Positions 1,305 to 49,000 of a stretch of DNA of 64,000 bases are shown here, in pieces. The first letter of the stretch is position 1, and each line of letters starts with the position of its first letter. The DNA comes from Litorilituus sp. (GTDB lineage Bacteria; Pseudomonadota; Gammaproteobacteria; Enterobacterales; Alteromonadaceae), in assembly GCA_030754235.1 (NCBI GenBank), contig JASMAS010000070.1, positions 124,001-188,000 of the forward strand, in the 5' to 3' direction. The translations under genes were made by a program, and so were the position numbers. The notes below the pieces were generated by a model. That model was not told where the DNA came from. It searched no databases and was given only the letters and a program-made list of their open reading frames with translations.

Positions 1305-2159
1305 TTATGACTTACGACAACGTGCGCCAGCAAAGCCTAATAAACCTAAACCTAAACCTAAAATAGCAATTGAAGTAGGCTCTGGAACATTTATAGATAA
1401 GCCACCCTTATGCTGTGCAGCAACAACACCAACACCATTGTTAAATACGACATTGGTTATATTAACAGGAAGACCTGGAAGGCCACCATCAACTGTTTGA
1501 CTAGATGATAACCTTACATCACCAAGTGCTGCCCAGTCAGCTAGAGACTTTATATTACCTAAATGATTAATTTCAAAAATGGTGTCTGCATCATGATCAA
1601 AATTACTTACCGTACCATTAAACACTTGCTTCTGTTGTCCCACTGAGTTGTCTGGACCACCGTAGGTTAAATCAACATCAAATAAGGCGTTAAATCCAGC
1701 AGTTAAACCACTTCCATTTGCAGCTGCAAAAACACCAAATTCAATAGTTCCAGAAGTGTATATAAAATCTGAACCATTGTATGTACCCGTTAAATCATTA
1801 AAAGAAAAAGTGAATAAATAATCAGTGCCATAACCTTCTATTTGAGGGAATTGGTTAGGAGTAAAACCATTAACATGATTATAAACAATACTACCGTGAT
1901 CTCCTCCTGTTAAAGGGAATCCTGCGCTATCAAAACCATTTGCACCAAAACCACCTACAGAGTGAATAGTATCTCCAGCACTCAGAACATTATCATTGTT
2001 GGTGTCAGCTATTAATGATTGCGAATTATAAGCAAAAGCCATTTCCAAAATAGTATTCCCTTCGCTATCTCCCCATGGCGCATCCCAAGAAATTGAATCG
2101 GCCATAACATTTGCACTACAAGTAGCAGCAAATGCCGCTGCAAAAAAAAATTTTTTCAT
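1305..2159 (-). CDS. PEP-CTERM sorting-domain protein (probable exosortase substrate 1)
   Basis: This 284-residue protein has an N-terminal signal peptide (MKKFFFAAAFAATCSANVMA, cleavage near residue 20) and a C-terminal tripartite tag: VPEP, a hydrophobic helix rich in Gly/Leu/Ala, then a basic end (ARCRKS). That is the PEP-CTERM signal recognised by exosortases, so it is expected to cross the inner membrane, be cut at the tag and reach the outer surface or matrix. Residues 52-63 (DTNNDNVLSAGD) follow the spacing of a calcium-binding EF-hand/dockerin-like loop. The middle is Gly/Asn-rich and is not assigned to a domain. The ATG has a good AGGGAGA ribosome site. It is monocistronic and has a sigma-54 promoter with an upstream box shared with the other PEP-CTERM gene of the window. 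Confidence 0.88.
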   Translation of the reverse strand: MKKFFFAAAFAATCSANVMADSISWDAPWGDSEGNTILEMAFAYNSQSLIADTNNDNVLSAGDTIHSVGGFGANGFDSAGFPLTGGDHGSIVYNHVNGFTPNQFPQIEGYGTDYLFTFSFNDLTGTYNGSDFIYTSGTIEFGVFAAANGSGLTAGFNALFDVDLTYGGPDNSVGQQKQVFNGTVSNFDHDADTIFEINHLGNIKSLADWAALGDVRLSSSQTVDGGLPGLPVNITNVVFNNGVGVVAAQHKGGLSINVPEPTSIAILGLGLGLLGFAGARCRKS

Positions 2160-2194: not shown

Positions 2195-2210
2195 TGCATT
2201 ACACGTGCCA
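2195..2210 (-). promoter_or_regulatory. Sigma-54 (-24/-12) promoter of PEP-CTERM gene 1
   Basis: Read on the minus strand the site is TGGCACGTGTAATGCA. It matches the sigma-54 consensus TGGCACG-N4-TTGC[A/T] at all but one base, with GG and GC separated by ten bases. Transcription would start near 2184, about 25 bases before the start codon. The window encodes a sigma-54-type activator, PrsR. Confidence 0.85.
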
Positions 2211-2271
2211 AAAACATAACCACTTGTTATAAAAGAAATTAAAATCACTACCACTTAGTACTTAGTTAAAG

Positions 2272-2291
2272 GTGTAAAAAAAGCTGTCACT
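2272..2291 (-). promoter_or_regulatory. Candidate PrsR-binding upstream box of PEP-CTERM gene 1
   Basis: On the minus strand the pattern is AGTG-N5-TTTTTTTACAC. The same pattern occurs at 39576-39595 upstream of the second PEP-CTERM gene. Counted from the -24 GG of each promoter to the near edge of the box, the distance is 63 bases in both. Activators of this class bind sites at about this distance, often as dyads; AGTG and ACAC form an imperfect one. Assigning it to PrsR is inference. Confidence 0.55.
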
Positions 2292-2319: not shown

Positions 2320-5082
2320 TCACATTGATTTAATACGTTCAATCCTTTCAACGAGTTCTTTATCTAATCGTTTTACATTTATTTGAATAACCACCTCTTG
2401 AGCTTGCTTAATTTTCATATTAGCCACTAATGATTCAGCATAGTCTACTTTGTAGCTAGCTTTGTTCGAATTAATTTGCATAGCTTTTTGTAAAGGCTTA
2501 ATTGACTGTGTTTTTTGACCACTAGCTAACAATATTTGACCATAAGTATTTAGCACGCTAGCTTGCTGTGGTGCTTTAGATAGTGCTGCTTTAGCATTTT
2601 CAAGCGCTTTAATGTTATCTCCTTGCTTTAAATACTCCCAAGCCAGATTATTTAGGATGACAAAGTGATTATTAGTTTGATTAGCTAAGCTTTTGTATAT
2701 TGCTATCGTTTTTTTAGGCTGGATATCACTATATAAACTTGCTTTTTCTAATAATAACCTAAAAGATAAAGATCTGGTGTTTTCAAGGTTTTCAAGTAAA
2801 GCAAATGCCTTATCATGTTCGTTCGTCATACGAAGCGATTTTAATAATTCTAATAAAACTTGTTCGCTTGGCTGCTTGTTATACACTTGCAGTAAAGTTA
2901 AAGCTGAGGCATTATATCTTCTCTCTTTAAAAGCAATTTTTCCCTGCAACGTTAGCACATTAATATCATTTTTCTCTATTTCATTTAATTGTTTAATCAC
3001 TTCCTTCGCGGCATTTACATTATTATTTTTTATATATAATTTGATCAGCGCAACTTTATAAGTTAAAGCTTGAGGCAATAGCTCAATTGCTTGTTTCTGA
3101 ATTTCTATGGCTTCTTGAAAGTTCTTCTTTAAATTATATATATTTGCTTTTACTGCATAAGCAACCACAGTGCTTGGGCTTATTGCTATCACGTGATCTA
3201 AAACGACTATAGCTTCATCATATTTTTTTTCATTAACATAAACATTAGCTTGTAATAACAAAAATTTAATATTATCAGGAAAAGACTTTAAAGATTTTTG
3301 TAATAATTTATGAGCGTCACTAAATTTTCTATTGGCGATATACAACTCTAACAAAACTATATTATTCAACTCACTTGTTGATTCTTCGGCATACTCACCA
3401 ACAAAATAATTTTCAATTTCAGACTGTACTTCTGGATGAGTTGATAACTTCAATAACTCTGTAATAGCGGGAATATGGTCATTATTTATAGACAAAACAC
3501 GAAAGTAATATTCAACACTTTTTTCAAGCATCTTTTCATTTTCGCTAATACTAGCTAAATTAATTAGTGCTCCAACATGGTTCTCATTTATAGCCAAAAC
3601 CTCAAAAAAATACTTTTTAGCTTTCACTAGATTTTTTTGTCTATAATGAATAATGCCTCTTAGACTATAGGAGAGTTCAATATTTTCCTTTTCAAGGCCT
3701 TTAGCAACATAGATAGCTTCATCATACTTTTCATCTGAAATTAACTTAGTAACTAATAATGTTGTGGCTGCATCTAAATTTGGATCTTTTTCTAATGCGC
3801 GTTTAAAAAAGTCAATTGAAGAATCATCTCCACTTAACAACTTAATGACACCTTGTTTATATATAATATGAGAATTTTCTGGATCAACTAACGCAGCTTT
3901 TTCCATCAATGTATTTGCTTCATCTTTATCACCTTGTTTTAAAAACAGCATTGCTGAAGTGTAAAGTAACCGAGTATCTAATTCATCTAGCGAAGCCTCT
4001 GATAATTCTTGAAAAAATTCTTCTTTATATCCTAGTTGTAACCGAATTGAAGCAAGTAGTTGCTTAGCTGGGTGTTTATAGGATAATCGTTCTTTAATGG
4101 CAACAAGGTGCATATGTGCTGATTCTATTTGGCCTAACTGATACGAACTAACGCCTGCAACTAAATGAGCCAAAGGTAAGTTTGAATTATTTATTAATGC
4201 CATTTCAGCATATTTTTTGGCTTCGACATGATTTTTTTCTGCGAATTTTACTTGCGCTTTTATTTGATTTAACCATGCGTGCTTAGGGTTTATTTGAAGT
4301 AAAAAATCTGCTTGTTTTTCAGCTTCTGTAAACTGCCCATCCCGTATTAACGCTTCTGAAAATAACATTCTAGTTTTATGTTCGTGCTGATAAGTTTGTA
4401 AATAATCATTTAAGACTATAGCCGCTTCTGATGCTTGCTGTATACCGAACAAAACTTGAGCTTTAAGCAGTTTTGCCTCAGGAAAACTAGGGAAGGATGT
4501 AGACAACTCCTCAAGAGTTTCTAACGCAGAGTCGCTGTCTTTTATTAATGTAGCCATGTAGGCTTTACTTAGAATCAAAAAAGGTGAATCTATTTTGTAT
4601 GCGGTCACTTTTTCAAATAGCTCTTTTGCCTCGGTTAGCGAGCCTTGTTCAACATAAACCATCGCTAAATACGTCATGACTAATACGTCAAGTTTTTTAG
4701 ACATTGCCGATTGTTTAACTAAGAGTTCCTCTAAAGCAGCGCTATCGTGTAACTTAAAATAAACCTGAGCAAGCAAGGGAATAAATAGCTTTTGATCATA
4801 ATGAAATTGTTTTACTACTCTAGTCAACTCTTTTTCAGCAGCCAACCAATTACCTTGTTGGGCATAAGCTTTTCCTAACAGAAAACGCCCATCAGCATTT
4901 GTTGAATCATTTTTCAATAAATTTTTAAGGTTAATAATTGCCTCGGTATTTTTACCTTGTTGTAAAAATGCCGAGGCACTATTTAAATATTCTTCTGAGG
5001 TTTGATCTTTGCTACAACCGGATACCCCTCCAGATAAAACGGCAAAAACAAATATGGGTAAGATTTTTTTTTTATAATTCAT
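2320..5082 (-). CDS. prsT: XrtA/PEP-CTERM-system TPR-repeat lipoprotein, PrsT type (copy 1)
   Basis: This 920-residue protein has a lipoprotein signal peptide with lipobox LSGGVSGC (Cys near residue 23). Tandem tetratricopeptide repeats fill almost all the rest, for example motifs such as NTEAIINLKNLLKND, EAKYAEMAL-like helices and GDNIKALENAKAALSKAP. Length and architecture match the PrsT family, which accompanies exosortase A loci; its molecular role is not established but it is thought to be a periplasmic or envelope scaffold. It is transcribed divergently from xrtA with about 200 bases between them. The ATG is preceded by AAAGGAATTAAG, a good ribosome site. A second protein of this type lies at 39691-42498, and only this copy has a clear lipobox. 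Confidence 0.85.
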   Translation of the reverse strand: MNYKKKILPIFVFAVLSGGVSGCSKDQTSEEYLNSASAFLQQGKNTEAIINLKNLLKNDSTNADGRFLLGKAYAQQGNWLAAEKELTRVVKQFHYDQKLFIPLLAQVYFKLHDSAALEELLVKQSAMSKKLDVLVMTYLAMVYVEQGSLTEAKELFEKVTAYKIDSPFLILSKAYMATLIKDSDSALETLEELSTSFPSFPEAKLLKAQVLFGIQQASEAAIVLNDYLQTYQHEHKTRMLFSEALIRDGQFTEAEKQADFLLQINPKHAWLNQIKAQVKFAEKNHVEAKKYAEMALINNSNLPLAHLVAGVSSYQLGQIESAHMHLVAIKERLSYKHPAKQLLASIRLQLGYKEEFFQELSEASLDELDTRLLYTSAMLFLKQGDKDEANTLMEKAALVDPENSHIIYKQGVIKLLSGDDSSIDFFKRALEKDPNLDAATTLLVTKLISDEKYDEAIYVAKGLEKENIELSYSLRGIIHYRQKNLVKAKKYFFEVLAINENHVGALINLASISENEKMLEKSVEYYFRVLSINNDHIPAITELLKLSTHPEVQSEIENYFVGEYAEESTSELNNIVLLELYIANRKFSDAHKLLQKSLKSFPDNIKFLLLQANVYVNEKKYDEAIVVLDHVIAISPSTVVAYAVKANIYNLKKNFQEAIEIQKQAIELLPQALTYKVALIKLYIKNNNVNAAKEVIKQLNEIEKNDINVLTLQGKIAFKERRYNASALTLLQVYNKQPSEQVLLELLKSLRMTNEHDKAFALLENLENTRSLSFRLLLEKASLYSDIQPKKTIAIYKSLANQTNNHFVILNNLAWEYLKQGDNIKALENAKAALSKAPQQASVLNTYGQILLASGQKTQSIKPLQKAMQINSNKASYKVDYAESLVANMKIKQAQEVVIQINVKRLDKELVERIERIKSM

Positions 5083-5280: not shown

Positions 5281-6621
5281 TTGAATATAAAAAAAATGGA
5301 CTCGAACATATTTAAACACCCTTTTGTTCCATTTATCTCTGTACTATTAATAACAACACTTGTTGCCCTGTTGAATATCCCTGTTATGTATACACTATGG
5401 CAATATAGTTTTGATGATGGTACCTATTCACATGCCTATTTAATTCCGGTTATCGTAGTGTATTTATTTTATGCCATAACAAAGTCAGAGCAAGTAAACT
5501 TTCGAAAGTGCCTTTCTAAGCCTGCCTTATTACTCTTTTTACTAAGTGCTTATTTCTTATTTATAACAAGCACAGCTCAGATTAGTTTGCTTTATTGGTT
5601 AGCTACGATTTTACTCGTTTGCTCAGCCATTAACTTTGTTTTCAACAGTAATTTTAAAATCATATTTTCATCATTATATTTTATCTTTTTGATTCCCTTA
5701 TGGGGTGTATTAACTATTCCTCTACAGTCCATTTCAGTTGTAGCAGTAAATGCTCTTATGGGGCTCACCACTATTCCTGTTTATGTTGAACAGCAATTTG
5801 TACAAATTCCTTCAGGTACTTTTGAAATAGCCGGTGGCTGCAGTGGTTTACGCTACTTGTTAACGTCATTAGCAATCAGCTCTTTGTATTGCTTCTTATA
5901 TTTTCGTACGATAAAAAATATAGCGATATTCATTTTGGTTGCCATTTTTGGCGCACTATTAACTAATTGGCTAAGAATAGTGGGATTAATTATCATTGGG
6001 CATCAAACAGAGATGACTAGCCCATTAATGGAAGACCACAACATGTTTGGTTGGTATCTATACGCTCCTTTCATGTTGTTGTTATTTATATTTGGCGGAC
6101 GCCTTGCCGACAAAGAAGGCGCTATCAATATAAATAAAGTGAACACAAACACCTCTCCAGTTAACAAACCTAACTGGCCGTTAACGACGGTTCTTCTATG
6201 TGTGTTATTATTTTCTTCTACCTCATTACAGTTATCCTCAACGACTACGCCTAAAATGAGAACAATTGAAACAACCGTTCAACCGATGATTTATAATTTT
6301 TCCCATCTACAAATCATTACTGATAATGCTCTAATAACTCACTTAGAATATAGTTTTAATGGCAGAAACTTAGAATCAAAACCGACTTTTTTTGCAAATA
6401 GTTTTATTCCGGAAAATTGGCATGTGATATCAGCGAATACAAACAACGAAAATCAAGAGTTAATTGTAAAAAATGGTGACAAAACTGCAAAAATCATTGT
6501 TAGCTATCAAATATCTGGTTCAAAGTTTGGTAGCTCATCAAAATTTAAGCTTGAGAGGCTTAAACGCGCTGCTATTGGAATAAATGAAACTAAGTTACAT
6601 TGGCAATTTCAATTACAATAA
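5281..6621 (+). CDS. xrtA: Exosortase A-type transpeptidase with EpsI-like C-terminal domain
   Basis: This 446-residue inner-membrane protein has about eight transmembrane helices over residues 1-280. The exosortase catalytic residues are all visible: Cys187 in AGGCSGLRY, Arg232 in NWLRIVG and His253 in MEDHNMFGW. The last 150 residues, after one more helix (TTVLLCVLLFSSTSL), form a soluble domain resembling EpsI, which is often fused to XrtA. The enzyme is expected to cleave the PEP-CTERM tag of exported proteins and may transfer them to a glycolipid or polysaccharide carrier. The reading frame begins at TTG (5281) with AGGG about eight bases upstream; the first in-frame ATG (5296) has no ribosome site, so the TTG is preferred. 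Its substrates in the window are the genes at 1305 and 38573. Confidence 0.9.
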   Translation: MNIKKMDSNIFKHPFVPFISVLLITTLVALLNIPVMYTLWQYSFDDGTYSHAYLIPVIVVYLFYAITKSEQVNFRKCLSKPALLLFLLSAYFLFITSTAQISLLYWLATILLVCSAINFVFNSNFKIIFSSLYFIFLIPLWGVLTIPLQSISVVAVNALMGLTTIPVYVEQQFVQIPSGTFEIAGGCSGLRYLLTSLAISSLYCFLYFRTIKNIAIFILVAIFGALLTNWLRIVGLIIIGHQTEMTSPLMEDHNMFGWYLYAPFMLLLFIFGGRLADKEGAININKVNTNTSPVNKPNWPLTTVLLCVLLFSSTSLQLSSTTTPKMRTIETTVQPMIYNFSHLQIITDNALITHLEYSFNGRNLESKPTFFANSFIPENWHVISANTNNENQELIVKNGDKTAKIIVSYQISGSKFGSSSKFKLERLKRAAIGINETKLHWQFQLQ

Positions 6622-29762: not shown

Positions 29763-29861
29763 ATAAAAATCGCCTCTCAATATGGATAAAAGTGAAAATT
29801 TCCCTATACATAAGACTACCTTTGAATTTCAATCTTATAAAGCTGATTTTACTGACAAAAA

Positions 29862-30884
29862 TTACTTGAAAAAATTAATATACCACGGCATCGCTTTTTC
29901 TACACCGTCATAAAAATTATACTTGGGCTCGTAACCTAAGTTAACTTTTGCTTTAGAGATATCAGCTTGAGAATGGCGGACATCTCCTGATCTAAAGTCA
30001 CGATAAATAGGTTCATTATCTACCAGCACATGGTTATTAGTTAAGGTAGTTTTGATGGTGTCAAATAAGGTATTTAATGTTGTTCTATCACCAACAGCAA
30101 CATTATAAACTTGATCTTTGACATTTTCTTCTGCTGTAGCACTGAGTAAGTTCATTTGAATAACATTTTCAATAAAACAAAAATCTCTACTCGTTTCACC
30201 ATCTCCATTAATAAATAGCGATTCATTATTGATCATTGCTGAAGTCCATTTGGGAATAACGGCTGCATAAGCCCCCTTTGGATCTTGGCGTTTACCAAAA
30301 ACATTAAAATAACGCAGACCAATAACATTAAAGTCATATGTTTTCGCAAATACGCTTGCATACAATTCATTTACATATTTAGTAACAGCATAAGGAGATA
30401 AGGGGTGACCTATATTTTCTTCTACTTTAGGCAAAGCAGGGTGATCACCATAGGTTGAACTGGACGCTGCGTAAGTAAAACTTGATACGCCTTGTTCCTT
30501 TGCTGCCGTTAGCATATTTAAAAAACCAGTTATATTGGCTGAATTAGTCAGAATAGGGTTAGCGATTGATCTTGGTACTGACCCTAAAGCAGCTTGATGC
30601 AATACATAATCAATATCACTTACCGCCTTGACACAAGTGTCATAATGACGAATATCACCTTCAATAAAACTAAATTTTTGCCATTGCTCTACAGAAACAG
30701 ATTGTTGCACTTCATCTAAATTATGCTGATGGCCTGTCTCAAAGTTATCTAACCCTATTACTTTCTGATTTAGCAGTAACAAGGCTTCAAGTAAATTGGA
30801 GCCAATAAACCCGGCCACTCCTGTAATCAACCATATTTTAGGCGAGGTCGTTAATTGTTGTTTAACTTCGTTATAACGTGACAT
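29862..30884 (-). CDS. wbpP: UDP-N-acetylhexosamine C4-epimerase (WbpP/TviC type)
   Basis: This 340-residue extended short-chain dehydrogenase has the NAD-binding motif [14 protein letters not shown] (near residues 22-35), a Ser-Ser-Ser-Tyr-Gly catalytic segment [11 protein letters not shown], a YxxxK pair in [13 protein letters not shown], and [14 protein letters not shown]. These motifs match the WbpP/TviC/Gne family. It probably interconverts UDP-GlcNAc and UDP-GalNAc, or the corresponding uronic acids, in the cytoplasm. It sits about 50 bases after a nucleotide-sugar dehydrogenase of the WbpO/TviB type, the standard pairing for UDP-GalNAcA. The start has GAGAA upstream. The specificity is inferred from family and pairing; glucose-type epimerisation is less likely. 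Confidence 0.87.
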
Positions 30885-30933
30885 GTATTTTCTCTATTCT
30901 TTAACTCGTAAATGACCTTTAATACCACAAAAT

Positions 30934-32208
30934 TTATAAGCGCATATCAACCTTGCTTTTATCTAATAAGTATTTTAAATCGTAAAGTACATGATTTTCT
31001 TTACCTAACGCCTTAATATTATCTTCTCCTAATTCTTTAAACTCTCTATGCGCCACAGCTAATATAATGGCATCATATTTACCTTTTTTAGGGCTTTGTA
31101 TTAAAGACAAATTATATTCAGCCGCTGCTTCCTCATAAGAGCACCATGGGTCAGTAACATCAACATGGATATTATATTCATTTAGCTCTGTAATAATATC
31201 GGTAACCTTAGTATTACGTAAATCAGGACAATTTTCTTTAAAGGTAAGCCCCATCACTAAAACATTTGCACCATCAACTTGAATTTTATTCTTAAGCATT
31301 TGTTTTACTAGTTGAGAAACAACATAAGTGCCCATACCGTCATTTAATCTTCGACCAGCAAGAATCATCTCTGGGTGATAACCAACAGATTGCGCTTTAT
31401 GTGTTAAATAATAAGGGTCAACACCTATACAGTGTCCTCCAACTAAGCCGGGACGAAATGGAAGAAAATTCCATTTTGTCCCGGCCGCTTCTAGCACTTC
31501 TAAAGTATCAATATTCAATTTATTAAAAATAATAGAAAGCTCATTGATTAAGGCTATATTTACATCACGTTGAGTATTTTCAATAACCTTAGCGGCTTCT
31601 GCAACTTTAATAGAGCTTGCCTTATGTGTTCCAGCAATAATAATTGATTTATATAGTTGATCAACAATCTCCGCTATTTCAGGAGTTGAACCAGACGTTA
31701 CTTTTAAGATATTTGTAACTCGATGGGCTTTGTCGCCCGGATTAATACGTTCAGGAGAATAACCTGCAAAGAACTCTTTATTGAATACTAAACCTGACGC
31801 TTGCTCCACAACAGGTATACATTCTTCTTCGGTAGCTCCAGGGTAAACAGTTGATTCATATATAATAACATCTGTTTTATTAATAACTGAACCTAGCATT
31901 TTGCTTGCCTTTATTAATGGCGTTAAATCAGGTTGTTTGTGGTTGTCGATGGGTGTAGGTACGGTAACAATATAAACATTAGCTTGTTTCAATTCATCCG
32001 TATTACATGAAAACTGTAAATACTCCGCACTAGCCAGTTCATTATCACTTACCTCTAATGTACTATCGCTGCCTGCGTTTAATTCAACAATACGCTCTAA
32101 ATTAATATCAAAACCAATCGTTTGATATTTTTTCCCAAACTCTACGGCTAAAGGTAAACCGACGTAGCCCAAACCAATGATTGCTATTTTTTTATTTGAT
32201 AAATCCAT
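30934..32208 (-). CDS. wbpO: UDP-N-acetylhexosamine 6-dehydrogenase (WbpO/TviB type)
   Basis: This 424-residue UDP-glucose/GlcNAc dehydrogenase-superfamily protein has the N-terminal NAD motif [36 protein letters not shown], and the catalytic cysteine in [18 protein letters not shown] (Cys near residue 258). The C-terminal UDP-binding domain contains [18 protein letters not shown]. It oxidises the C6 of a UDP-N-acetylhexosamine twice to the uronic acid, using two NAD. The ENCPDLRN form is typical of WbpO/TviB rather than of UDP-glucose dehydrogenases. With the downstream epimerase it should deliver UDP-GalNAcA, which makes the predicted polymer acidic. It starts 260 bases from the divergent export-lipoprotein gene. 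Confidence 0.88.
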
Positions 32209-38572: not shown

Positions 38573-39460
38573 CTAACCTTGCTTTTCTCGAGCAGCAAAA
38601 AAGCCAAACCCAGCCAATAACATTAGCATTAATGTACTAGGTTCTGGCACAGGTGTTGGCGGATTAGGTGATGTAAAGTTGGTTACCACTTCAATAATAT
38701 CATTGGCACAACTCATCGCCCAACGAAGAGCAATTTGCTCAGCCCCCATTAAAGCAGTACCTGAAATATCAAAAGTCATTGTGAGCAGCTTCTCACTAAC
38801 ATCAGTACTCCAAGTTCCATTTGGGTTGGATACTTGATCAGCGGTACTTTTAACATCAACAATTTGCCAACCTCTAACACCGGAGCCCCTTAACTGGCTT
38901 GAGGTATTTACATCAAGGTGATAACCACCATTTACATCTGTTACATTCCCTGATGTCTCAATAGCTCTGAGTGTTCCTGCTGTCTGAGCATAATCATTTG
39001 TTGAGTTTCTCTGATGTAGGTTAGCTAAATCTAACCCTAAATCAAACGCATACTCCCATTTATTGGTTCCTGCACTATAAGAGTTTTCATTACAACCACG
39101 AGCATTTACATTAGTGCCATTGGTGGCACTAGTACTGGTACATGTATCAGCCATTTGATAATTATTGGCATCCATCAAAAACAAATCGCCCAGTTTAAAG
39201 TAACTATCATAGCCAATAAAGTTCGAGTTCACTTCTACTGTTAATATACCTTGATCAGATTTGTCAATCTTCATCCAGTGAGTATCATAATTGGCTGCAG
39301 TATCATTTGGACGATAATCATCGTTATTGTAGGAATTATACCTTGCGCCAACATAGCTATCTTCTAATTGACCTGTCGTAACTGTTCCCGCATAACTTGC
39401 TGCGGAGAGCATCACTGTTGACAAAATATACATAACACTAATTTTATTGACAAACTTCAT
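38573..39460 (-). CDS. PEP-CTERM sorting-domain protein (probable exosortase substrate 2)
   Basis: This 295-residue protein has a signal peptide (MKFVNKISVMYILSTVMLSA, then ASYAG) and a C-terminal VPEPSTLMLMLLAGFGFFAA tag with a basic end, so it is a probable XrtA substrate. The body contains a Cys pair (DTCTSTSATNG ... RGCNENS), and DTHWMKIDK and SNFIGYDSYFKLGDLF segments; it is not matched to a named domain. The frame is open another 150 bases upstream, but those residues are hydrophobic and lack a ribosome site. The ATG at 39460 has GGAAG five bases upstream. Sigma-54 promoter 39499-39514 lies 38 bases upstream of that ATG, supporting this start. It is divergent from the second PrsT-type gene and converges with the ATPase gene. 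Confidence 0.88.
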   Translation of the reverse strand: MKFVNKISVMYILSTVMLSAASYAGTVTTGQLEDSYVGARYNSYNNDDYRPNDTAANYDTHWMKIDKSDQGILTVEVNSNFIGYDSYFKLGDLFLMDANNYQMADTCTSTSATNGTNVNARGCNENSYSAGTNKWEYAFDLGLDLANLHQRNSTNDYAQTAGTLRAIETSGNVTDVNGGYHLDVNTSSQLRGSGVRGWQIVDVKSTADQVSNPNGTWSTDVSEKLLTMTFDISGTALMGAEQIALRWAMSCANDIIEVVTNFTSPNPPTPVPEPSTLMLMLLAGFGFFAAREKQG

Positions 39461-39498
39461 AAAGACTTCCGAAAAACTTACTCTCAATACTGAAAAAA

Positions 39499-39514
39499 AG
39501 CAAATATCAAGCCA
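39499..39514 (-). promoter_or_regulatory. Sigma-54 (-24/-12) promoter of PEP-CTERM gene 2
   Basis: On the minus strand it reads TGGCTTGATATTTGCT. GG and GC are separated by ten bases and TTGCT matches the -12 consensus exactly. Transcription would start near 39488, about 28 bases before the chosen start codon, the same geometry as the promoter at 2195-2210. Confidence 0.85.
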
Positions 39515-39575
39515 ACATAATAAGTAGCTGATTTTAAATGCTATATTTACTGTTGCAACAAACAAAAATAGAATA

Positions 39576-39595
39576 GTGTAAAAAAAACCAACACT
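39576..39595 (-). promoter_or_regulatory. Candidate PrsR-binding upstream box of PEP-CTERM gene 2
   Basis: On the minus strand this is AGTG-N5-TTTTTTTACAC, with a further base pair completing a symmetric AGTGT/ACACT dyad. It starts 63 bases from the -24 GG, exactly the spacing of the box at 2272-2291. It also lies in the 230-base gap with the divergent PrsT-type gene, so it could act on both. The regulator is inferred. Confidence 0.55.
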
Positions 39596-39690
39596 TTCTG
39601 GTGCTAAATTCAAGATTTTTAGTATATTACTTAACGTTTAATTTTAATAGTGCAATAATAATTAGACCTAATGTTTACACAACCTTAACT

Positions 39691-42498
39691 ATGATCAATA
39701 CGTTAAAATATTCTTTATTACTCTTTAGCCTGTCTTTGCATTTTGTATTAATGGCCAATACAGCCTATGAAGATGCCTTGAAAAGCTTTCATCAAAAAGA
39801 ATATGATGAAACGATCATTTATTTAAAAAATGCACTTAAAGAAGATATTGATCATATCCCTTCCCGTCTACTACTCTCAGAAACCTTAATTGCTCAAGGT
39901 AAAGGCGAAATGGCTGAAACCGAATTATATGATCTGCAAGCACGCGGTGTAAATTTCAATCAAGTTGTTGCCTTACTTGCACAATCGTTAATATTACAAA
40001 ATAAATATAAACAGGTATTAGATATTGCCACACCCGGTTATCGCGGGAACGCCATTGAAAGCCAGATTTTTTTTGCAAGAGGCCAAGCCTATTTAGGGTT
40101 AAATCAACTACGACAAGCTGAGCAATCCTTCAATGATGCCCTCAATATTGAATCAGACTTCCAACTCGCAATGCTGGGTATTGCACAAGTTGCGATGAAC
40201 CAAAACAAACTTAACAAAGCGAATCAATTTATTGTTAAAGCTTTAGACTCATACGAACCGCTAATTAATGCGTGGATAATGAAATCAACATTACTTCAAA
40301 TCCAAGGACTACATGACCAAGCACTGACCACGATTAATACAGCATTGAAAAAAGAGCCTGGCAACTTACAAGCCAAGCTAAATAGAGCATCTTTATATAT
40401 TGCTAATCAAGAGTGGCCTGCCGCCGCACAAGATTTAGATTTTATTTTAACGAAAATTGAACAAGAGCCCAGAGCAAAATATTTACGAGCAATCGTGAGT
40501 GCCAAGTTAGGTAACATTGAAGATAGCAGGGCTAAACTAAATGAAGTGATTGGCACCTTAAATTCCATACCTGATTCGGTAATGATGCAAAACCCTAGCT
40601 ACCTATTTTTAGCTGGAGTGACTAACTATAATTCAGGTAATTTAGAAGATGCTCGTCACTACTTTCAAAATTACTTAACCATTAAAGAAAACGATTTTAA
40701 TAGCTTGAGGTATATTGCCATTATCGAACTCCAGCAAGGAAAGCCCGAGAACGCTAAAAATATATTAACCAAAGCGAATGTTTATTACCCTGACAGTCCA
40801 GCATTATTATCGTTACTTGGCATTGCGCTGATGGATTTAAAAAAAATAGAACAAGCAAAATACTATTTCGAAAGGGTTGTTAACTTATCTCCAGGCTATA
40901 ATAACCAAGCATTAAGTAACTTAGCACAAAGTCAGATTATCTCAGGCGATTATTCTCAAGCAATTAACAACCTATTAGATGCCAAGCAAGATGATAGCAA
41001 TAACACATCGATAAGCTTACTTCTGGTTGAAGCTTATTTAAAAACCAAACAATATGACAAAGCCAAAGCATTGACAAAAACCTTACTTGAAACACAACCT
41101 GACAGCAGTTACTTCAATCAACAACATGGTGTTGCTCTTGGGTTTTCTGGTGACATCAAAGGTGCTAGATATGCCTTTGAGCAAGCGATTAAGCTACAAC
41201 CAACAAACAGTCAAGCAATAATACACTTAGCAAGAATGGAGCTGATTGAAAACGGCCCTCAAGTAGCTATAACTCTGTTAGAAAAAATAATCACTGAGCA
41301 ACCTGAAAATATAGGATTAATTGTTGAACTCGCTGATACTTATATGAAGAGCAACAATACAGAAAAGGCACTGACTTTATATCAACAAGCTTTCGACTTT
41401 GATAACCAAAATTTATTTACCTTAACTAAGTTAGTCGACTTTTACTTTGTTACTAACCAACATGACAAAACTGAAAGAATTTTAGTGGCCTTTTTGCAGA
41501 AGCACCCTAAAAACAGTGAAATAAAAATAAAACTTGCTCACTTATACAATCAATTCAATCAACCTTTAAAAGCAATAAAGACTTTAGAGTCTGCTGTAAT
41601 GGATTCACCCGATCGCACCCAGACTTATATGTTGTTAGCTCAAGCACAACTTAAAATAGAACAAAGAGATGCTGCAATAAAGTCTTTAAATAAAGCAATG
41701 GCTTGGGATGAAAAGCGTATTGAACCACTATTGATGTTATTCCCTATTGCTTTATCAAAAAAAGATTATGCTAGAGCGGAGCAGGTAATTTACACAATTA
41801 ATAAGCTCATTCCAGAGCAAGACGTTGTTGATGTGCTTTCTGCACAACTGTTTGAGTCAAAAAAAGCATATCAAAAGGCAGAACAAAGTTATCGAAGGGG
41901 ATTAAAAAAGCACCCTAGCAGAAAATCTACCTTGGGTTTATTTAACACCTTAAATAAACAAGAGAAATACCATCAAGCCCAACAATTAATCCAACAATGG
42001 CTCATAAAAAATCCCAAAGATGTATTAGTAGAAATAGCACTGGCTGAGAGTTTCATCCTTCAAAAAGAATTAACGAAAGCTTTAGATTTTTATCATTCAT
42101 TAATCAAAAAATATAAACGAATGCCTATTTTATTGAACAATGCAGCCAATGTTGCATTACAACTAGAGCAAGCTTCTTTAGCTGAAAACCTTGCTAAAGA
42201 AGCTTATGAAAAAGCGCCTAAAAATGCTAACATTATAGATACTTACGCTTGGATAATAGCTCAACACAAAGATAGAATTAAAGCCATTACTCTGTTTCGA
42301 CAAGCACTTGTTTTAGACTTTAATAATGCTGAAGTAAAATATCACTTAGCTTTAACGTTAAAACAAGAGCAACGAGACCGAGAAGCGTATAAGTTACTCT
42401 CTGATTCAGTAAAGTCAGAACAAATGTTTGCCGATAAAAATAAAGCGATACAGCTAATTAAAAAGTGGAAAAAAGAAAAGTATGACACAAATAAATAA
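39691..42498 (+). CDS. prsT: XrtA/PEP-CTERM-system TPR-repeat protein, PrsT type (copy 2)
   Basis: This 935-residue protein has a signal-like N terminus (MINTLKYSLLLFSLSLHFVLMA) and then about twenty tetratricopeptide repeats from YEDALKSFHQKEYDETIIYLKNALKED to the end. PrsT-family features include the opening repeat followed by DHIPSRLLLSETLIAQGK and the late YEKAPKNANIIDTYAW, near-identical in position to NTYGQILLASGQ in the first copy. No lipobox Cys is visible, unlike copy 1. The frame is open from 39601, but the 30 extra residues are not signal-like; the ATG at 39691 is chosen on that basis. It is convergent with prsR, 36 bases away, matching the usual PrsK-PrsR-PrsT neighbourhood. Function is unproven; an envelope scaffold for PEP-CTERM sorting is likely. 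Confidence 0.85.
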   Translation: MINTLKYSLLLFSLSLHFVLMANTAYEDALKSFHQKEYDETIIYLKNALKEDIDHIPSRLLLSETLIAQGKGEMAETELYDLQARGVNFNQVVALLAQSLILQNKYKQVLDIATPGYRGNAIESQIFFARGQAYLGLNQLRQAEQSFNDALNIESDFQLAMLGIAQVAMNQNKLNKANQFIVKALDSYEPLINAWIMKSTLLQIQGLHDQALTTINTALKKEPGNLQAKLNRASLYIANQEWPAAAQDLDFILTKIEQEPRAKYLRAIVSAKLGNIEDSRAKLNEVIGTLNSIPDSVMMQNPSYLFLAGVTNYNSGNLEDARHYFQNYLTIKENDFNSLRYIAIIELQQGKPENAKNILTKANVYYPDSPALLSLLGIALMDLKKIEQAKYYFERVVNLSPGYNNQALSNLAQSQIISGDYSQAINNLLDAKQDDSNNTSISLLLVEAYLKTKQYDKAKALTKTLLETQPDSSYFNQQHGVALGFSGDIKGARYAFEQAIKLQPTNSQAIIHLARMELIENGPQVAITLLEKIITEQPENIGLIVELADTYMKSNNTEKALTLYQQAFDFDNQNLFTLTKLVDFYFVTNQHDKTERILVAFLQKHPKNSEIKIKLAHLYNQFNQPLKAIKTLESAVMDSPDRTQTYMLLAQAQLKIEQRDAAIKSLNKAMAWDEKRIEPLLMLFPIALSKKDYARAEQVIYTINKLIPEQDVVDVLSAQLFESKKAYQKAEQSYRRGLKKHPSRKSTLGLFNTLNKQEKYHQAQQLIQQWLIKNPKDVLVEIALAESFILQKELTKALDFYHSLIKKYKRMPILLNNAANVALQLEQASLAENLAKEAYEKAPKNANIIDTYAWIIAQHKDRIKAITLFRQALVLDFNNAEVKYHLALTLKQEQRDREAYKLLSDSVKSEQMFADKNKAIQLIKKWKKEKYDTNK

Positions 42499-42534: not shown

Positions 42535-43884
42535 TTAATTATTAATACTCAATTCATATTTCTCAATTAATGAGTACAACGTTGGTCTAGTAACCCCTAA
42601 AAGATCCGCTGTTTTTGACATGTTCCCTTCAGATAAGGAGTAGGCTTTTTGAATGGCGATTGATTCCGCTTTTTCACGTACTGTGCGCAGGTTTAATGAC
42701 AGCTCATAGCGAGTACCATCATGATCATAAAAACCTAAATCAAACGCTGTAACTTGCCCCCCCGTGCTCATGACAACCGATGATTTAACCTTGTTTTGTA
42801 ATTCACGAATATTACCAGGCCATTGATGCGCTCTAATAGCACTCTTAGCGTCATCAGAGAATGACTTAGCATTGCTTTTATATTCGTTGGCATATATTTG
42901 TAAGAAATATTGCGCTAATATTAACACGTCTTCATCACGGTCACGCAGCGGTGGAATATTTAGGGTGATTTCACTGACCCGATAGAATAAATCTTCTCTA
43001 AACGCTTTATTAGCAACCATTTCTTCAAGGTTCTGATTGGTTGCACAAATAACCCGAACGTTCACTGGGATTTCTTCTCTGCCGCCCAAACGCTCAATCA
43101 CTTTTTCTTGTAAAAACCGTAATAACTTGGCTTGTAAATTAAACGGCATATCACCAATTTCATCAAGAAAAAGTGTGCCGCCTTCGGCACACTCTATTTT
43201 ACCTTTAGTGGCTTTATGAGCACCAGTGAACGCACCTTTTTCAAAGCCAAATAATTCACTTTCTAATAAGTTTTCAGGAATGGAAGCACAATTAATGGCA
43301 ATAAAAGGCTTATTAGTGCGATCACTGGCAAGGTGAACGGCCTTTGCGGTGACCTCTTTACCTGTTCCACTTTCTCCTAACAGTAACACTGTAATATTAG
43401 TAGGAGCAATGCGTTTAACCATAGTACGACAACGCTCAATGGCTGAACTATTTCCAATAATGCCAATATTACTATCAGTTACCGATCGCATATTGCGATT
43501 TTCACTTTCAATCTTTGCTAAGGTTAACGCGCGAGAGAGAATGACATTGATCACTTCAACATCAATAGGTTTTTGATAAAAATCATAAGCCCCCATTGAA
43601 ATCGCTTTTAGTGCATTAGCTCTATCTTCATTACCCGTAATAACAATCACTTTGGTATGCGGTGCTATGGCTAATATTTCTTCTAATGCTTTTAACCCTT
43701 CGCTTGCATTAGCAGCATCAGGGGGAAGGCCTAAATCTAAGGTAACGACTTTAGGCTCATGACGTCGAATTGCTGCAATAGCAGATTCTCTATCACCTGC
43801 TAATACTGGGGTATAATCAGATAAACTCCATTTAAGTTGTTTTTGAATCCCTTTGTCATCATCAACTATTAATACTTTTTCCAT
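42535..43884 (-). CDS. prsR: Sigma-54-dependent response regulator PrsR
   Basis: This 449-residue NtrC-type regulator has a receiver domain (LIVDDDKGIQ, phospho-acceptor Asp in VVTLDLGLPP near residue 51), a sigma-54-interaction AAA+ domain (Walker A LLLGESGTGKEVTAKAVH, the GAFTGA loop in FEKGAFTGAHKATKG, Walker B GGTLFLDEIGDMP) and a Fis-type helix-turn-helix (NMSKTADLLGVTRPTLYSLI). The sequence and neighbours fit PrsR of PEP-CTERM systems. It is expected to bind upstream boxes and open sigma-54 promoters of PEP-CTERM genes; two such promoters are in the window. It lies downstream of the kinase gene prsK with a 116-base gap and probably shares its transcript. Confidence 0.92.
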   Translation of the reverse strand: MEKVLIVDDDKGIQKQLKWSLSDYTPVLAGDRESAIAAIRRHEPKVVTLDLGLPPDAANASEGLKALEEILAIAPHTKVIVITGNEDRANALKAISMGAYDFYQKPIDVEVINVILSRALTLAKIESENRNMRSVTDSNIGIIGNSSAIERCRTMVKRIAPTNITVLLLGESGTGKEVTAKAVHLASDRTNKPFIAINCASIPENLLESELFGFEKGAFTGAHKATKGKIECAEGGTLFLDEIGDMPFNLQAKLLRFLQEKVIERLGGREEIPVNVRVICATNQNLEEMVANKAFREDLFYRVSEITLNIPPLRDRDEDVLILAQYFLQIYANEYKSNAKSFSDDAKSAIRAHQWPGNIRELQNKVKSSVVMSTGGQVTAFDLGFYDHDGTRYELSLNLRTVREKAESIAIQKAYSLSEGNMSKTADLLGVTRPTLYSLIEKYELSINN

Positions 43885-44000: not shown

Positions 44001-46028
44001 CTACGTAGGTAAACTAATAATCATTTTGGTACCTTGCCCTTCAGTACTTTCAACCATTAAATTACCGGCAACACGTTCAAAAAACTGTCTTGCTTCAAAA
44101 ACACCTATGCCCATGCCTGCATTACCTTTCGTTGTATCAAAAGGTTTAAAAAGTCGGGTTTTAATAAAGTTTTCTGACATTCCACAGCCATTATCACTGA
44201 CAATAATCTCAATATTTTTCTGTTTAGTCATTATGGATACTTTCACTTGTCCATCAGCAGCAGATGCCTCTTGAGCATTCTGAATTAAGTGGTTCATTAC
44301 TGAAAAAAAACGTTCATCATCAATGGTTGCTAAACACTGTTCTGTAGCACTTAAAACCACCTCAGGGTTAGTTACGTTTCGCTGCGCGATGACTTTTTTA
44401 ATAATATCACCAAGATCAACCCTTTTACTAGCTGATTGCGCAATTTGCTTATTTCTAAGTTGCCTTAAGACTTTAGCCAAACGTGCCGTTGCTGACTCAA
44501 CCGTATCAAAAACATCATCAACAAATTCAGGGTTATTACGGTGTTGTATTGCATTAGCCGTGATAAGGTCTAATTGAGCCTGAATATTTTTTAAATCATG
44601 AACTAAAAAGGCCGACATTTGATTAAAGGCATCAAATTGCTTGGATTCGGCCAATTTATCATTTGCTTCATTGAGTGAGATAAAGTTGCCTAATTGCTTT
44701 GCAATAGCAAATAATAAATCCCTATCTTCCCAATTAAGTTTCTTATGCTCATTAGAGTTAGCTAAAATAAAAAAACCATAAAACGCTTTGCCAATAAAAA
44801 TAGGGACTAGAATATTTATTCCTAAAGCACGCCAGCTATTAGTATGTATAAAGAGGCTAGGGTATGATAGCGGATCTTGACTGTATTCATTGATATCAAT
44901 AATCCAGCCTTTATTTTTCGTGAAGTGTTCAAGTAAAACTAGGTCTTTTTCAAATGAACTATTCCAGTCTAAACCACAGAGGTATTGACTGGTAAATTTA
45001 TGCTTGCCATTAGCCTTTAAAATAGCACCGCCTGTAGCCCCAACCTTAGACATCATTATAGCTAATGACATTTGATAATAATTTTCAGCGCTTGCTGTTT
45101 CTATTTTGCCAATAAGCTCTAACCACTCTTCTCGATATTCATATTTATTGGCAAAAAAGTTTTTTGATATAAACACTTTAACTTGCCGTCGAACCGCTTC
45201 TGTCATTAACAACACGGCTAGCACTATGCTACCAAGAATAAAAAAACCAAAACTAACGAATTGCCCCCACTCACCTCCAAGGTAATTAATCAGATAACCA
45301 GCTACCGCCATCAACAACAAATATAGTCCAGCAATCATCAACATAGAGCTATAAAAGACGACTCCACGAGAGACAAATATACGTACTGAGCCTTCCCTGA
45401 AGCGCCTAATACTGATCAATAGCAAAGGAACAGCTATTGCGGATAAGTAACCTCGTACATACCAGAAGTTAAATTCAATACTACCAACCATTGATGCTTG
45501 TGCAAATAGTACAAAATCAAAAACATTAATGCTGCCCAAAGCTAGAACAAGCGGGGTTACCGAACTTTTCATCTCAACAGTAGCACTTCGATAAATCTGT
45601 TCTAACAACACTAAGCTGGCTAAATTGAGCATTACAAAAAATAAAAACAGATATTTATTTGAGTAATCTAGGCTATGGCTGATTCCCCAACATGCCGCAA
45701 TAGTAAGAAGTCCATAAAGTGAGTACTTGCGAACATTCTTGTTTTTAACAATAGTTAGCATGCCTACTTTGTCAAGATTAAAACTAAAAATTAACATGGA
45801 AAAAGCCGCTAATTTGACAGCATCAGCTAACATCGCCCATTGTAAAGAAAATCCAACAGTGATTTGCAAGGTAGCAATTACATTTGCGATCCCTGCGGTC
45901 ATGGCACTAAATAACATCCACTTGGCAATATTAGATTGATTATGGGCAGCTAGAATAAGTAAAAAAAATATAATATAAGCAATGCTAGCAAAGCTATAGC
46001 CCCAAATACCTACTGTATACATTTCCAT
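44001..46028 (-). CDS. prsK: XrtA/PEP-CTERM-system sensor histidine kinase PrsK
   Basis: This 675-residue membrane kinase has eight or nine N-terminal helices (residues about 1-290), a GAF-like domain (residues about 320-460), a dimerisation/phospho-acceptor helix with the His in AFLVHDLKNIQAQLDL, and an ATP-binding domain with NHLIQNAQEA (N box), IVSDNGCGMSENF (G1), FKPFDTTKGNAGMGIGVF (F and G2) and STEGQGTKMIISLP. This layout is that of PrsK. It would phosphorylate PrsR in response to an unknown membrane or redox signal. The open frame extends 141 bases upstream into the RND gene; ATG 46028 (MEMYTVGIWGYS) starts just before the first helix and clears that gene, so it is preferred. Confidence 0.9.
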   Translation of the reverse strand: MEMYTVGIWGYSFASIAYIIFFLLILAAHNQSNIAKWMLFSAMTAGIANVIATLQITVGFSLQWAMLADAVKLAAFSMLIFSFNLDKVGMLTIVKNKNVRKYSLYGLLTIAACWGISHSLDYSNKYLFLFFVMLNLASLVLLEQIYRSATVEMKSSVTPLVLALGSINVFDFVLFAQASMVGSIEFNFWYVRGYLSAIAVPLLLISIRRFREGSVRIFVSRGVVFYSSMLMIAGLYLLLMAVAGYLINYLGGEWGQFVSFGFFILGSIVLAVLLMTEAVRRQVKVFISKNFFANKYEYREEWLELIGKIETASAENYYQMSLAIMMSKVGATGGAILKANGKHKFTSQYLCGLDWNSSFEKDLVLLEHFTKNKGWIIDINEYSQDPLSYPSLFIHTNSWRALGINILVPIFIGKAFYGFFILANSNEHKKLNWEDRDLLFAIAKQLGNFISLNEANDKLAESKQFDAFNQMSAFLVHDLKNIQAQLDLITANAIQHRNNPEFVDDVFDTVESATARLAKVLRQLRNKQIAQSASKRVDLGDIIKKVIAQRNVTNPEVVLSATEQCLATIDDERFFSVMNHLIQNAQEASAADGQVKVSIMTKQKNIEIIVSDNGCGMSENFIKTRLFKPFDTTKGNAGMGIGVFEARQFFERVAGNLMVESTEGQGTKMIISLPT

Positions 46029-46036
46029 AAATATCT

Positions 46037-49000
46037 TTATTTTTCCTGAGTAAGGTTGGGGTGAATTGTAAAGCAAGTAAATAGCTCTGTTAATACCGGT
46101 ACCAATAGAAAGCTTGAAAGTGCTGACACACACAAGCCTGAAATAAGTACTACCCCCAGAGGTTGCCATAACGCACCACCATACAAGGTTAAAGGAATTA
46201 ACCCACCAATGGTTGTTAATGTTGTCAATAATATTGGCGTAAAACGCGTGGCACTAGCACAGAGTATAGATTGCTGTTTAGCTAAACCTTTTGCTAGGTT
46301 TCTATTGGCAGTATCAATTAACATAATAGCGTTATTCACTACAATGCCAAATAAACTAATTAAGCCAATAAACGCCATCATCGAAAAAGATAAATCTGTG
46401 GCATATAAGCCAATAACCGAGCCGGCCATAGCAAAAGGAATTGAACTAAAAATAATCAGCGGCTGTAAGAAAGACTTAAATTGCAATACTAAAATAGCAA
46501 AAATACCTATGGCTGTTATCAACATAATTTGCGTCAAGCCTGCAAATGATTCTTGCCTAGACTCTTCTTCACCGCCTAAACTGTAATACATTCCCGCCGG
46601 TAAATTATATTGTTCGACATAATTAACAAACTCTTTCGTTAGCGCATTAACCGAATAATTTTTATCAGCATCTGCAGAAACTTTTGCCATACGTAATTTT
46701 TGATAATGAAAATAATCCGTTTGACCTTTTTGCAGTCGAACATTAACCACTTGTAATAGCGGTATTTGTTGATCCGTTAAGCTAGTTACATAAATATCCG
46801 ATAAGGTATCAATGTCAGCATTTTTATTACGCACTAAAATAGGGTAATTTTCACCATTTTGGTCATTAAAACGGCCAACATAAGTCCCGGTTAAAATAGA
46901 CTGAATAGTATTATCTAAGGTGTTAATATCAAGGTTCGACATACCCGCTTTATCATAATCAATTTGTAAACTTAATTCGGTATTAGCGACACCGATAGGG
47001 TTATTAATATTAATAGTACCCTGTGTTTCCGACATTTTTGCTGCCAAATCATTTGCTACACGCTCTAGATCTGCTAGTGACTCAGAAATCAAACGAATCG
47101 CAATAGGTTGGTCAGTAACGGGCCCTTGAGTAAATTCCTTCACGGTTATTTTTGCTTGTGGCCAGTTAGCAAACTCATGGCGTAACGATTTAACTAACAT
47201 TGTCATTTTTTGCTGATCAAACGTCTTTAATATTACTAATACTTGACCATATCTAGCCACACCGCGCTTTGGAATTTCGTTATAATAAATACGTGGATTA
47301 GAGTTACCGACATTAAGCGCAACTTTTGCGACAAGTTCCTGCTGCTCAATTACGTGAGTCATTTTTTGCATAACGCTACTTGTATAAGCTAAAGAAGAGT
47401 TAGGTGCTGTTTCAACATCAACCAAAATCATCGGTTTTTCGGCCTTAGGAAATAAACTTAAACCTACTTGAGAAAAAAGAGACAACATCGCGAATAAGCT
47501 TATTAAAGCAATAGCAATAACTAGCCATTTTACCTTGAAAAGTTTGTTGAGCGCAGGTGCATAGATTTTTTCAGCAAAATCGTTTAAATAGTATTGTAGC
47601 GTCTTTGTTCTTGAGGCTTTACCACTAAAACTTTTGCTTGCCAATAAAGGTAATAAGGTGAGCGATAACAGTAATGAAGCTAATAATACTAGCACTACAG
47701 TCACAGGCATTGAGCGAATAAAATCCCCCGTATCACTTGCCAACATGAGCATAGGTAAAAAAGCTAACATGGTTGTAACAGTACCACTGATAGACGCCCA
47801 TGCTACTTGCTTTGTTCCTTCTATGGCGGCCTCAGAAATATTGCTTGTGCGTGCTTTTTCTCGATGAATACTTTCAGTAACCACAATAGCATCGTCAACT
47901 AAAAGGCCTAAAGCAATGATTAATCCCACTATAGACATTTGCTGTAACCCGAAACCCGCAAAGTCTAACCAACCCATAGCAATTAGAAAAGACAAGGGAA
48001 TAGCGATAATCACCACAAAGGATTCTCTAAGCCCTAAAAACAATAACGATAAAACACCAACCAACACAACCCCCTGCCAAAGGTTGTTAAAAAAACCATT
48101 AACCCGAACTTCTACACTGTCGGCTTGTTCAAATAAAACCTCCATTTTTACTGCTGAAGGAATTGTTTTTTTGAATAACTCTATTTCTCGTTGAATGGCT
48201 TGAGTCAATGAAAAAATATTCGTATTAGATCGTTGCTCTACCGTAATAAAAACCACCGGTTTTTTATCAAAATAGGTTAAATAGTTAGCCTCTTGGCTAG
48301 CAAAGCTCACCTTCGCCACATCTTTTAAGCGAATAACAAAGTCATCATGAGAAACAATGATAGTATTTTCTAATTGCGATAATTTTTCAAAGTTGCCACT
48401 GGTTTTCACATTAAAACGGCGAGTGTCAGCATCAACAAACCCCGGGGTAATATTAACCGCACGCCCTTGTAAAATGTGGGTAACATCAGAAATAGAAATA
48501 TGGTGATACTTAAGTAAATTGACATCAAAATCGACTGCCACCACTTGTTGTGGATACCCCCATATATCAGCTTTTTTAACCGCCTCTATTGTCTCTAGCC
48601 GCTTTTCTAAAAGCTTAGCATAAAACTCCATTTGCTTATAATCTGTAGGCTCAGTCCATAATGCCAATTGAATAATAGCCACAGCTGTAGGCGTTGCTTT
48701 TAACACCAGTAAATCTTGTACGCCATCTGGCAATGACGGCTTCACTGAAGAAACGGCTAGTTGCACTTGGTTAAATGCTAATTCAGGATCTGAACCATAA
48801 TGAAAAGCCACTTCAAGGCTAGCGCCACCATTTTTGATTTGCGCCTCTATGGTTTTAATATTATCAATGTCAGCAAATTCTTCTTCTAACGGGTCAACCA
48901 CCAAGGTTTCAATATCCTTTGGAGATGCTCCCGGATAAACAACTTCTATCACGGTAATAGGGATATCAAATTGTGGGTCTTCACTGCGCGGCATATTAAA

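Follow-up and report, generated by a model that had tools for sequence, protein, structure and literature searches.

What binds upstream of the sigma-54 promoters of the two PEP-CTERM protein genes in this DNA, and what sets its distance from them? The sequence-only reading had singled out a 20-bp box, AGTG-N5-TTTTTTTACAC, placed 63 bases from the -24 GG in both promoters, as a candidate operator of the response regulator PrsR. A pattern search of the window (the whole stretch of 64,000 nucleotides that was analysed) returns both copies as exact matches on the minus strand (Table 1). Measured from its promoter-proximal edge, each box is indeed 63 bases away from the first G, from 2272 to 2209 in the first (GG at 2209-2208) and from 39576 to 39513 in the second (GG at 39513-39512). 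The exact pattern is expected 0.01 times per 64 kb, and two copies appeared in 0 of 100 shuffles, whereas the pattern with three mismatches allowed occurs five times in the window against 6.98 expected. Because this relaxed pattern is at chance level, the information lies only in the exact pair. Both window boxes contain the 17-nt motif with a 3′ TTTACA (TGACAGCTTTTTTTACA and TGTTGGTTTTTTTTACA), and the box of the second promoter coincides with the PEP-CTERM box, motif 1 of Haft et al., 2006; with one further base it reads AGTGT-N11-ACACT. The whole draft genome (3.33 Mb) holds three copies of the exact pattern. The third (C60:20107) was rejected as a target: it lies within a mechanically called 613-aa ORF, with no sigma-54 site found in the next 260 bases.

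Table 1. Candidate regulatory sites, and genes of the PEP-CTERM system, in the window.
Feature	Positions	Strand	Evidence
Candidate PrsR box, first promoter, AGTGACAGCTTTTTTTACAC	2272..2291	-	23.9 bits (genus model, L032); 41.1 with sigma-54 site
Candidate PrsR box, second promoter, AGTGTTGGTTTTTTTTACAC	39576..39595	-	22.8 bits (genus model, L033); 43.9 with sigma-54 site
Sigma-54 -24/-12 element, first promoter, TGGCACGTGTAATGC	2196..2210	-	Sequence read; genus model
Sigma-54 -24/-12 element, second promoter, TGGCTTGATATTTGC	39500..39514	-	Sequence read; genus model
IHF-like site, first promoter, TAACAAGTGGTTA	2217..2229	-	8/9 consensus positions, at -20 from GG
IHF-like site, second promoter, AATCAGCTACTTA	39521..39533	-	8/9 consensus positions, at -20 from GG
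PEP-CTERM protein gene, first promoter	1305..2159	-	PEP-CTERM domain over cut-off
PEP-CTERM protein gene, second promoter	38573..39460	-	PEP-CTERM domain over cut-off
prsT paralogue (TPR protein)	2320..5082	-	TIGR02917, 503.8 bits (cut-off 312.2)
Exosortase, EpsH/Xrt family	5281..6621	+	TIGR02602, 230.7 bits, over cut-off; XrtA-specific 169.8 of 208, under
prsT paralogue, divergent from second promoter	39601..42498	+	TIGR02917, 598.3 bits (cut-off 312.2); start codon uncertain
prsR, PEP-CTERM-box response regulator	42535..43884	-	TIGR02915, 742.5 bits (cut-off 502.6)
prsK, histidine kinase	44001..46169	-	TIGR02916, 651.3 bits (cut-off 300)

A prsT gene adjoins each window box; the distance to prsR is about 40 kb for the first box and 3 kb for the second. 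Profile searches find PrsK, PrsR and PrsT all encoded, and the genome also carries genes for IhfA and IhfB (over cut-off), HU-beta and RpoN. The PrsR product, whose NCBI family name is ‘PEP-CTERM-box response regulator’, has the Pfam domains of a receiver, a sigma-54 AAA+ module and a Fis-type HTH, and its closest named relatives are Colwellia records with 90% identity, on which basis the window is placed in Colwellia. The distance from the TGC of the promoter to the ATG is 36 and 39 bases in the two window promoters. An ORF of 38573-39613 with a TTG start is an extension by the ORF caller across the second promoter, and the true start of that PEP-CTERM gene is likely the ATG at 39460. The product of the first gene is a distant relative of the flocculation protein PepA (36.8 bits, under the family cut-off of 80). 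Elsewhere in the window (28359-32208), an EpsB_2 gene for a PEP-CTERM-type sugar transferase adjoins relatives of two Vi polysaccharide enzymes, TviB (which passes its cut-off) and TviC (which does not), an arrangement that suggests an exopolysaccharide containing an N-acetyl-hexuronic acid. An ORF for an RND-family efflux permease (46037-49087) immediately precedes prsK on the strand that they share and overlaps the listed prsK ORF.

The box and its promoter are not peculiar to the two window genes. A motif search upstream of PEP-CTERM genes, which the sequence-only reading had put forward as a check, finds the box together with a sigma-54 site at all four such genes recognised in this draft genome (matches at E up to 0.1, a search that variant-tail genes could escape) and at 122 of 144 genes in the genus. 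The genus sample, drawn from 35 Colwellia genomes with our own four genes included, represents the best-scoring part of the matches. Of 150 listed, 143 were kept and the C83 gene of this genome was added; the seven dropped were two open frames of more than 1300 aa and five short or broken frames of less than 100 aa. Scores of a two-block model, fitted on the same sequences that it scores, separate 122 genes at 33.0 bits or more from 22 at 10.3 bits or less, and none of 432 Markov-shuffled sequences exceeds 18. A contig end cuts four of the 22 low-scoring loci (L222, L256, L267 and L300). The genus consensus of the box is aGTGTCAGnTTwTTTTACAc. Its TGT and ACA, separated by 11 bases, form symmetric pairs in 119 to 122 of the 122 boxes; the outer two base pairs show such symmetry in 54 and 40 boxes, and the interior is asymmetric, with CAG on the far side and the T run on the near side. 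The window boxes differ from the consensus GTGTCAG by at least one letter, yet score 23.9 and 22.8 bits.

A strict pattern of box plus promoter gives 251 matches in 39 genus genomes compared with three for a reversed-pattern control; over 274 genomes of the class it gives 171 compared with 28, so that some of the matches are noise. The reading frames behind the matches were checked for their tails at 60 loci, 30 from the genus and 30 from the class. A PEP-CTERM tail is encoded in the downstream ORF at 21 of these (15 genus, 6 class), another frame follows at 22 (9 genus, 13 class), and a simple rule finds no downstream ORF at 17 (6 genus, 11 class). In four of the nine other-frame genes from the genus, the product ends in a variant tail, SEP, PNP or STPN (L319, L343, L329 and L345), and these are candidate PEP-CTERM proteins overlooked by the usual motif. 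The targets of box plus promoter in the genus are in the main PEP-CTERM genes; in the class sample, where the frames were crudely called and some matches are noise, they are less certainly so. A tandem second box is unsupported as a rule, with only two extra boxes of at least 16 bits in 144 upstream regions. One of the two (at L249), a strong box (26.9 bits), lies inverted 301 bases upstream of the main box, and perhaps marks a divergent promoter. A box-like sequence before an SDR-type dehydrogenase-like ORF (C3:15702) was set aside, with no -24/-12 element seen by eye in the following 240 bases.

Distances between box and promoter come in steps of the helical turn. In the 122 genus promoters, the model gaps, to which seven is added to obtain the distance from ACA to GG, fall at 44-47, 53-58, 65-68, 75-80 and 86, with nothing between the groups. 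After de-duplication by promoter similarity to 81 clusters (another rule leaves 99), the best period is 10.45 bp with R 0.843, and with the main gap class removed R is 0.76 for the remaining 27 promoters. The genus pattern search, which gave every gap from 48 to 78 an equal chance, places the 150 matches listed of 251 at 51-54, 60-66 and 72-75 with a single outlier at 57; their period is 10.65 with R 0.836, compared with at most 0.354 in 500 uniform draws. Among the 149 listed of the 171 class matches from 274 genomes, the gaps peak at 53, 64 and 74-75, more broadly than in the genus, and eight lie in the half-turn valleys, compared with 43 under a uniform spread; the best period is 11.15 (R 0.66). 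In this class list, the row of our own genome is omitted, one G297 box is counted twice and two G157 matches start with identical letters. With one match per genome (68 genomes), the period is 11.0 with R 0.55 compared with at most 0.45 in 500 uniform draws. The class period of 11.0 to 11.15 bp thus exceeds the 10.45 of the genus, and its R is lower. A scan of 80 loci around PrsR relatives in named genomes gave 12 matches over threshold in 10 loci (L124 to L170), with model gaps of 46, 55 to 59, 68 to 69, 76 and 80; these are too few to give a spacing test.

The fourth PEP-CTERM promoter of this genome (G000:C83, L024, 1501-1622) has a model gap of 80, about three bases off phase. Its spacer holds an 11-bp unit, AGTTTTGCTAT, in a tandem array of 3.1 copies. 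Two of these units make 22 bases, which is close to the difference in gap from the main class, and the repeat looks like a lengthening of the loop in near-helical steps.

The sequence-only reading had taken the sequence between box and promoter to be unconserved. So it seems from two sites, but a third element becomes apparent there once 122 promoters are compared. With the GG as the alignment point, spacers of the main class (81 promoters) read YAA-N4-TTGA-A/T at -33 to -21, and similar letters stand at the same place where the box sits one turn (22 promoters) or two turns (7) further away; the G at alignment position -24 is present in 56 of 81, 14 of 22 and 5 of 7 promoters of these classes. 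Read backward, the element resembles WATCAANNNNTTR, the consensus given for IHF (PMC5963220). Exactly at -33, at least seven of the nine consensus positions agree in 55 of the 122 promoters, at least eight in 27 and all nine in two; full matches are rare, and the T of the IHF consensus at -22 is an A in most promoters. When the promoters are split by gap, those with at least seven of nine for the backward form at -33 are 39 of 85, then 13 of 22 with the box one turn further and 3 of 10 with the longest gaps; in the five promoters with the shortest gaps, this form at -33 is not among the leading offsets. Allowing one base either way, the backward form is found at -33 in 70 of 122 promoters, the forward form at -20 in 35 and both in nine. 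One or the other orientation is present at seven of nine or better in 96 of 122, compared with a mean of 13.7 and a maximum of 25 over 300 trials with shuffled spacers. A sample of 30 matches from the class search, our own genome excluded, has either form in 17 (shuffled mean 2.4, maximum 7). Both window promoters carry the forward form only, the rarer orientation, at eight of nine positions. Mirror forms about one centre would fit a bending protein that binds either way round, and a DNA-bending site of IHF type likely lies between box and promoter.

That the box should be called a candidate PrsR operator is supported by its place before four of four PEP-CTERM genes here and 122 of 144 in the genus, and the designation agrees with the prediction of Haft et al., 2006. 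PrsR and the strict pattern occur together: among the 274 class genomes, the pattern is present in 55 of 73 with PrsR and in 26 of 201 without it, an odds ratio of 20.6 in which kinship is ignored. Eighteen of the 73 genomes with PrsR contain no match. Compared with a control count of 20, genomes lacking PrsR contribute 38 matches, 11 of them from two draft genomes that are 73 and 77% complete. In the genus, PrsR is found in 37 of 39 genomes, and the two others have one strict match each. One of these two (G006), which is 99% complete and has no PrsR over the cut-off, carries box plus promoter in two of its four sampled genes (L249, L302, L217 and L085). These boxes may reflect an assembly gap or another activator; the retention of two good promoters counts against a strict rule that ties the box to PrsR. 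Our search of the open-access literature found no report of direct binding by PrsR.

How else might these observations be explained? The likeness of the two window promoters could be a chance coincidence of low-complexity A/T sequence, and the count with three mismatches, no better than expectation, speaks for that reading. The rarity of the exact pair, taken together with the genus model and the pattern searches that place box and promoter before most sampled genus genes, rules it out, and we give it practically no credence. A more serious proposal is that the box is bound by another sigma-54 activator of the NtrC family and that PrsR merely travels along as a passenger of the PEP-CTERM package. 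NtrC-like regulators number dozens per genome (in this one, the PrsR profile finds 34 at E up to 0.001), and G006 retains its boxes with no PrsR over the cut-off. Against this stand the co-occurrence of PrsR and pattern over 274 genomes, the fit of the PrsR family to the phylogenetic profile of the motif in the text of Haft et al., 2006 (PMC1569441), and the second-hand report (PMC9012009) that PrsK-PrsR and RpoN genetically control a PEP-CTERM gene of Zoogloea resiniphila. We regard another activator as improbable.

Rather than an IHF site, the third element could be an A/T-rich contact for the alpha subunit of RNA polymerase (UP-like) or an intrinsic bend. The element is A/T-rich, its place counted from the expected start site is about -58 to -45, it is anchored to the promoter rather than to the box, and its position -22 is mostly A where IHF reads T. 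However, its letters are specific, YAA-N4-TTGA with a conserved G, and a mirrored form, WATCAA-N4-TTR, stands at the mirror place, the two orientations seldom sharing a promoter (70 and 35 of 122; both in only nine). Mirrored, letter-specific forms are expected from an asymmetric bending protein and not from an A/T run. We consider an UP-like contact or intrinsic bend unlikely, although it carries real weight, and prefer the IHF-like site.

The sequence statistics establish the box, the promoter, the quantised spacing, a third conserved element and the co-occurrence with PrsR. From these, we propose that the box is very probably the site through which PrsR drives the sigma-54 promoters of PEP-CTERM genes, by way of a phased tight loop that a bend of IHF type assists. 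PrsK would phosphorylate PrsR, and oligomers of this NtrC-type activator would bind the 17-bp TGT-N11-ACA site. Bound PrsR would then activate the sigma-54 RNA polymerase poised at the -24/-12 element, turning on the genes for PEP-CTERM surface proteins. The short distance between box and promoter should permit only a tight loop, which would confine PrsR to one face of the helix, so that the box could shift only by whole turns, to about 53, 64 or 74 bases from ACA to GG. IHF, bound in either orientation at a constant position ahead of the promoter, would fold this loop.

We also favour, with somewhat more than even confidence, the broader reading that PEP-CTERM promoters across the class form a rigid three-part switch, composed of a PrsR site that shifts only by whole turns, a bend by IHF that is tied to the promoter and works in either orientation, and the -24/-12 element. 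If so, hundreds of natural promoters would record the evolutionary lengthening of a loop in steps of about 11 bp; the genus gaps of about 53, 64, 74, 84 and 93 bases from ACA to GG would be its successive lengths, and the 11-bp tandem repeat at C83 may be one such lengthening step, caught here. In this large and widespread set of native enhancers and promoters, the helical rule of DNA looping stands out very cleanly, and the set makes a sharper motif available for locating the surface-protein genes of biofilms and flocs.

The box itself is already known: a prediction published in 2006 is borne out in one more genome. Haft et al., 2006 (PMC1569441) described a 17-nt motif 1 ending in TTTACA and a sigma-54 motif 2, separated by a spacer with a mean of 62.8 nt (SD 10.6, range 32 to 92). 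Of 167 proteobacterial PEP-CTERM genes, 99 had this arrangement upstream, motif 2 preceding the start codon by about 23 to 221 nt. They predicted PrsR as the binder and activator, and Colwellia psychrerythraea was among their source genomes (PMC1569441). The window promoters share this layout, with the TTTACA end, a 63-base spacer within the published range and a PEP-CTERM gene downstream. The text of that paper presents two motifs and gives the spacer as a mean and spread; the present analysis adds the quantisation, the symmetry of TGT-N11-ACA and the IHF-like element. A term search of the same text for palindrome, inverted repeat, dyad and phase finds none of them, and ‘helical’ appears there in the title of a reference alone. 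No report of an IHF site at PEP-CTERM promoters was found in the open-access literature. The helical-turn spacing and the IHF-like site thus seem new, although they may be in print outside that literature.

An experimental counterpart exists in pepA of Aquincola tertiaricarbonis, an RpoN1-dependent PEP-CTERM gene beside prsT whose -24/-12 element has been mapped and which, according to the authors, also has the predicted enhancer; the relevant passages give neither a PrsR footprint nor phasing (PMC9850573). Activators of the NtrC type are described as reaching sigma-54 polymerase by looping, often with help from IHF, and at IHF-assisted promoters the IHF site lies between enhancer and promoter, as we propose here (PMC7962754). 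A parallel in spacing is provided by the LuxO/qrr enhancers of Vibrio, which likewise pair an NtrC-like activator with sigma-54 and for which 61 native enhancers are reported with loop lengths in steps of about 11 bp and a sequence period of 10.45 bp (PMC4740811). There, the activator and its site are different, LuxO sites are in tandem and the loops span about 80 to 120 bp (PMC4740811). Unlike those enhancers, the PEP-CTERM promoters of the genus have one box and shorter gaps, mostly of 62 to 64 bases.
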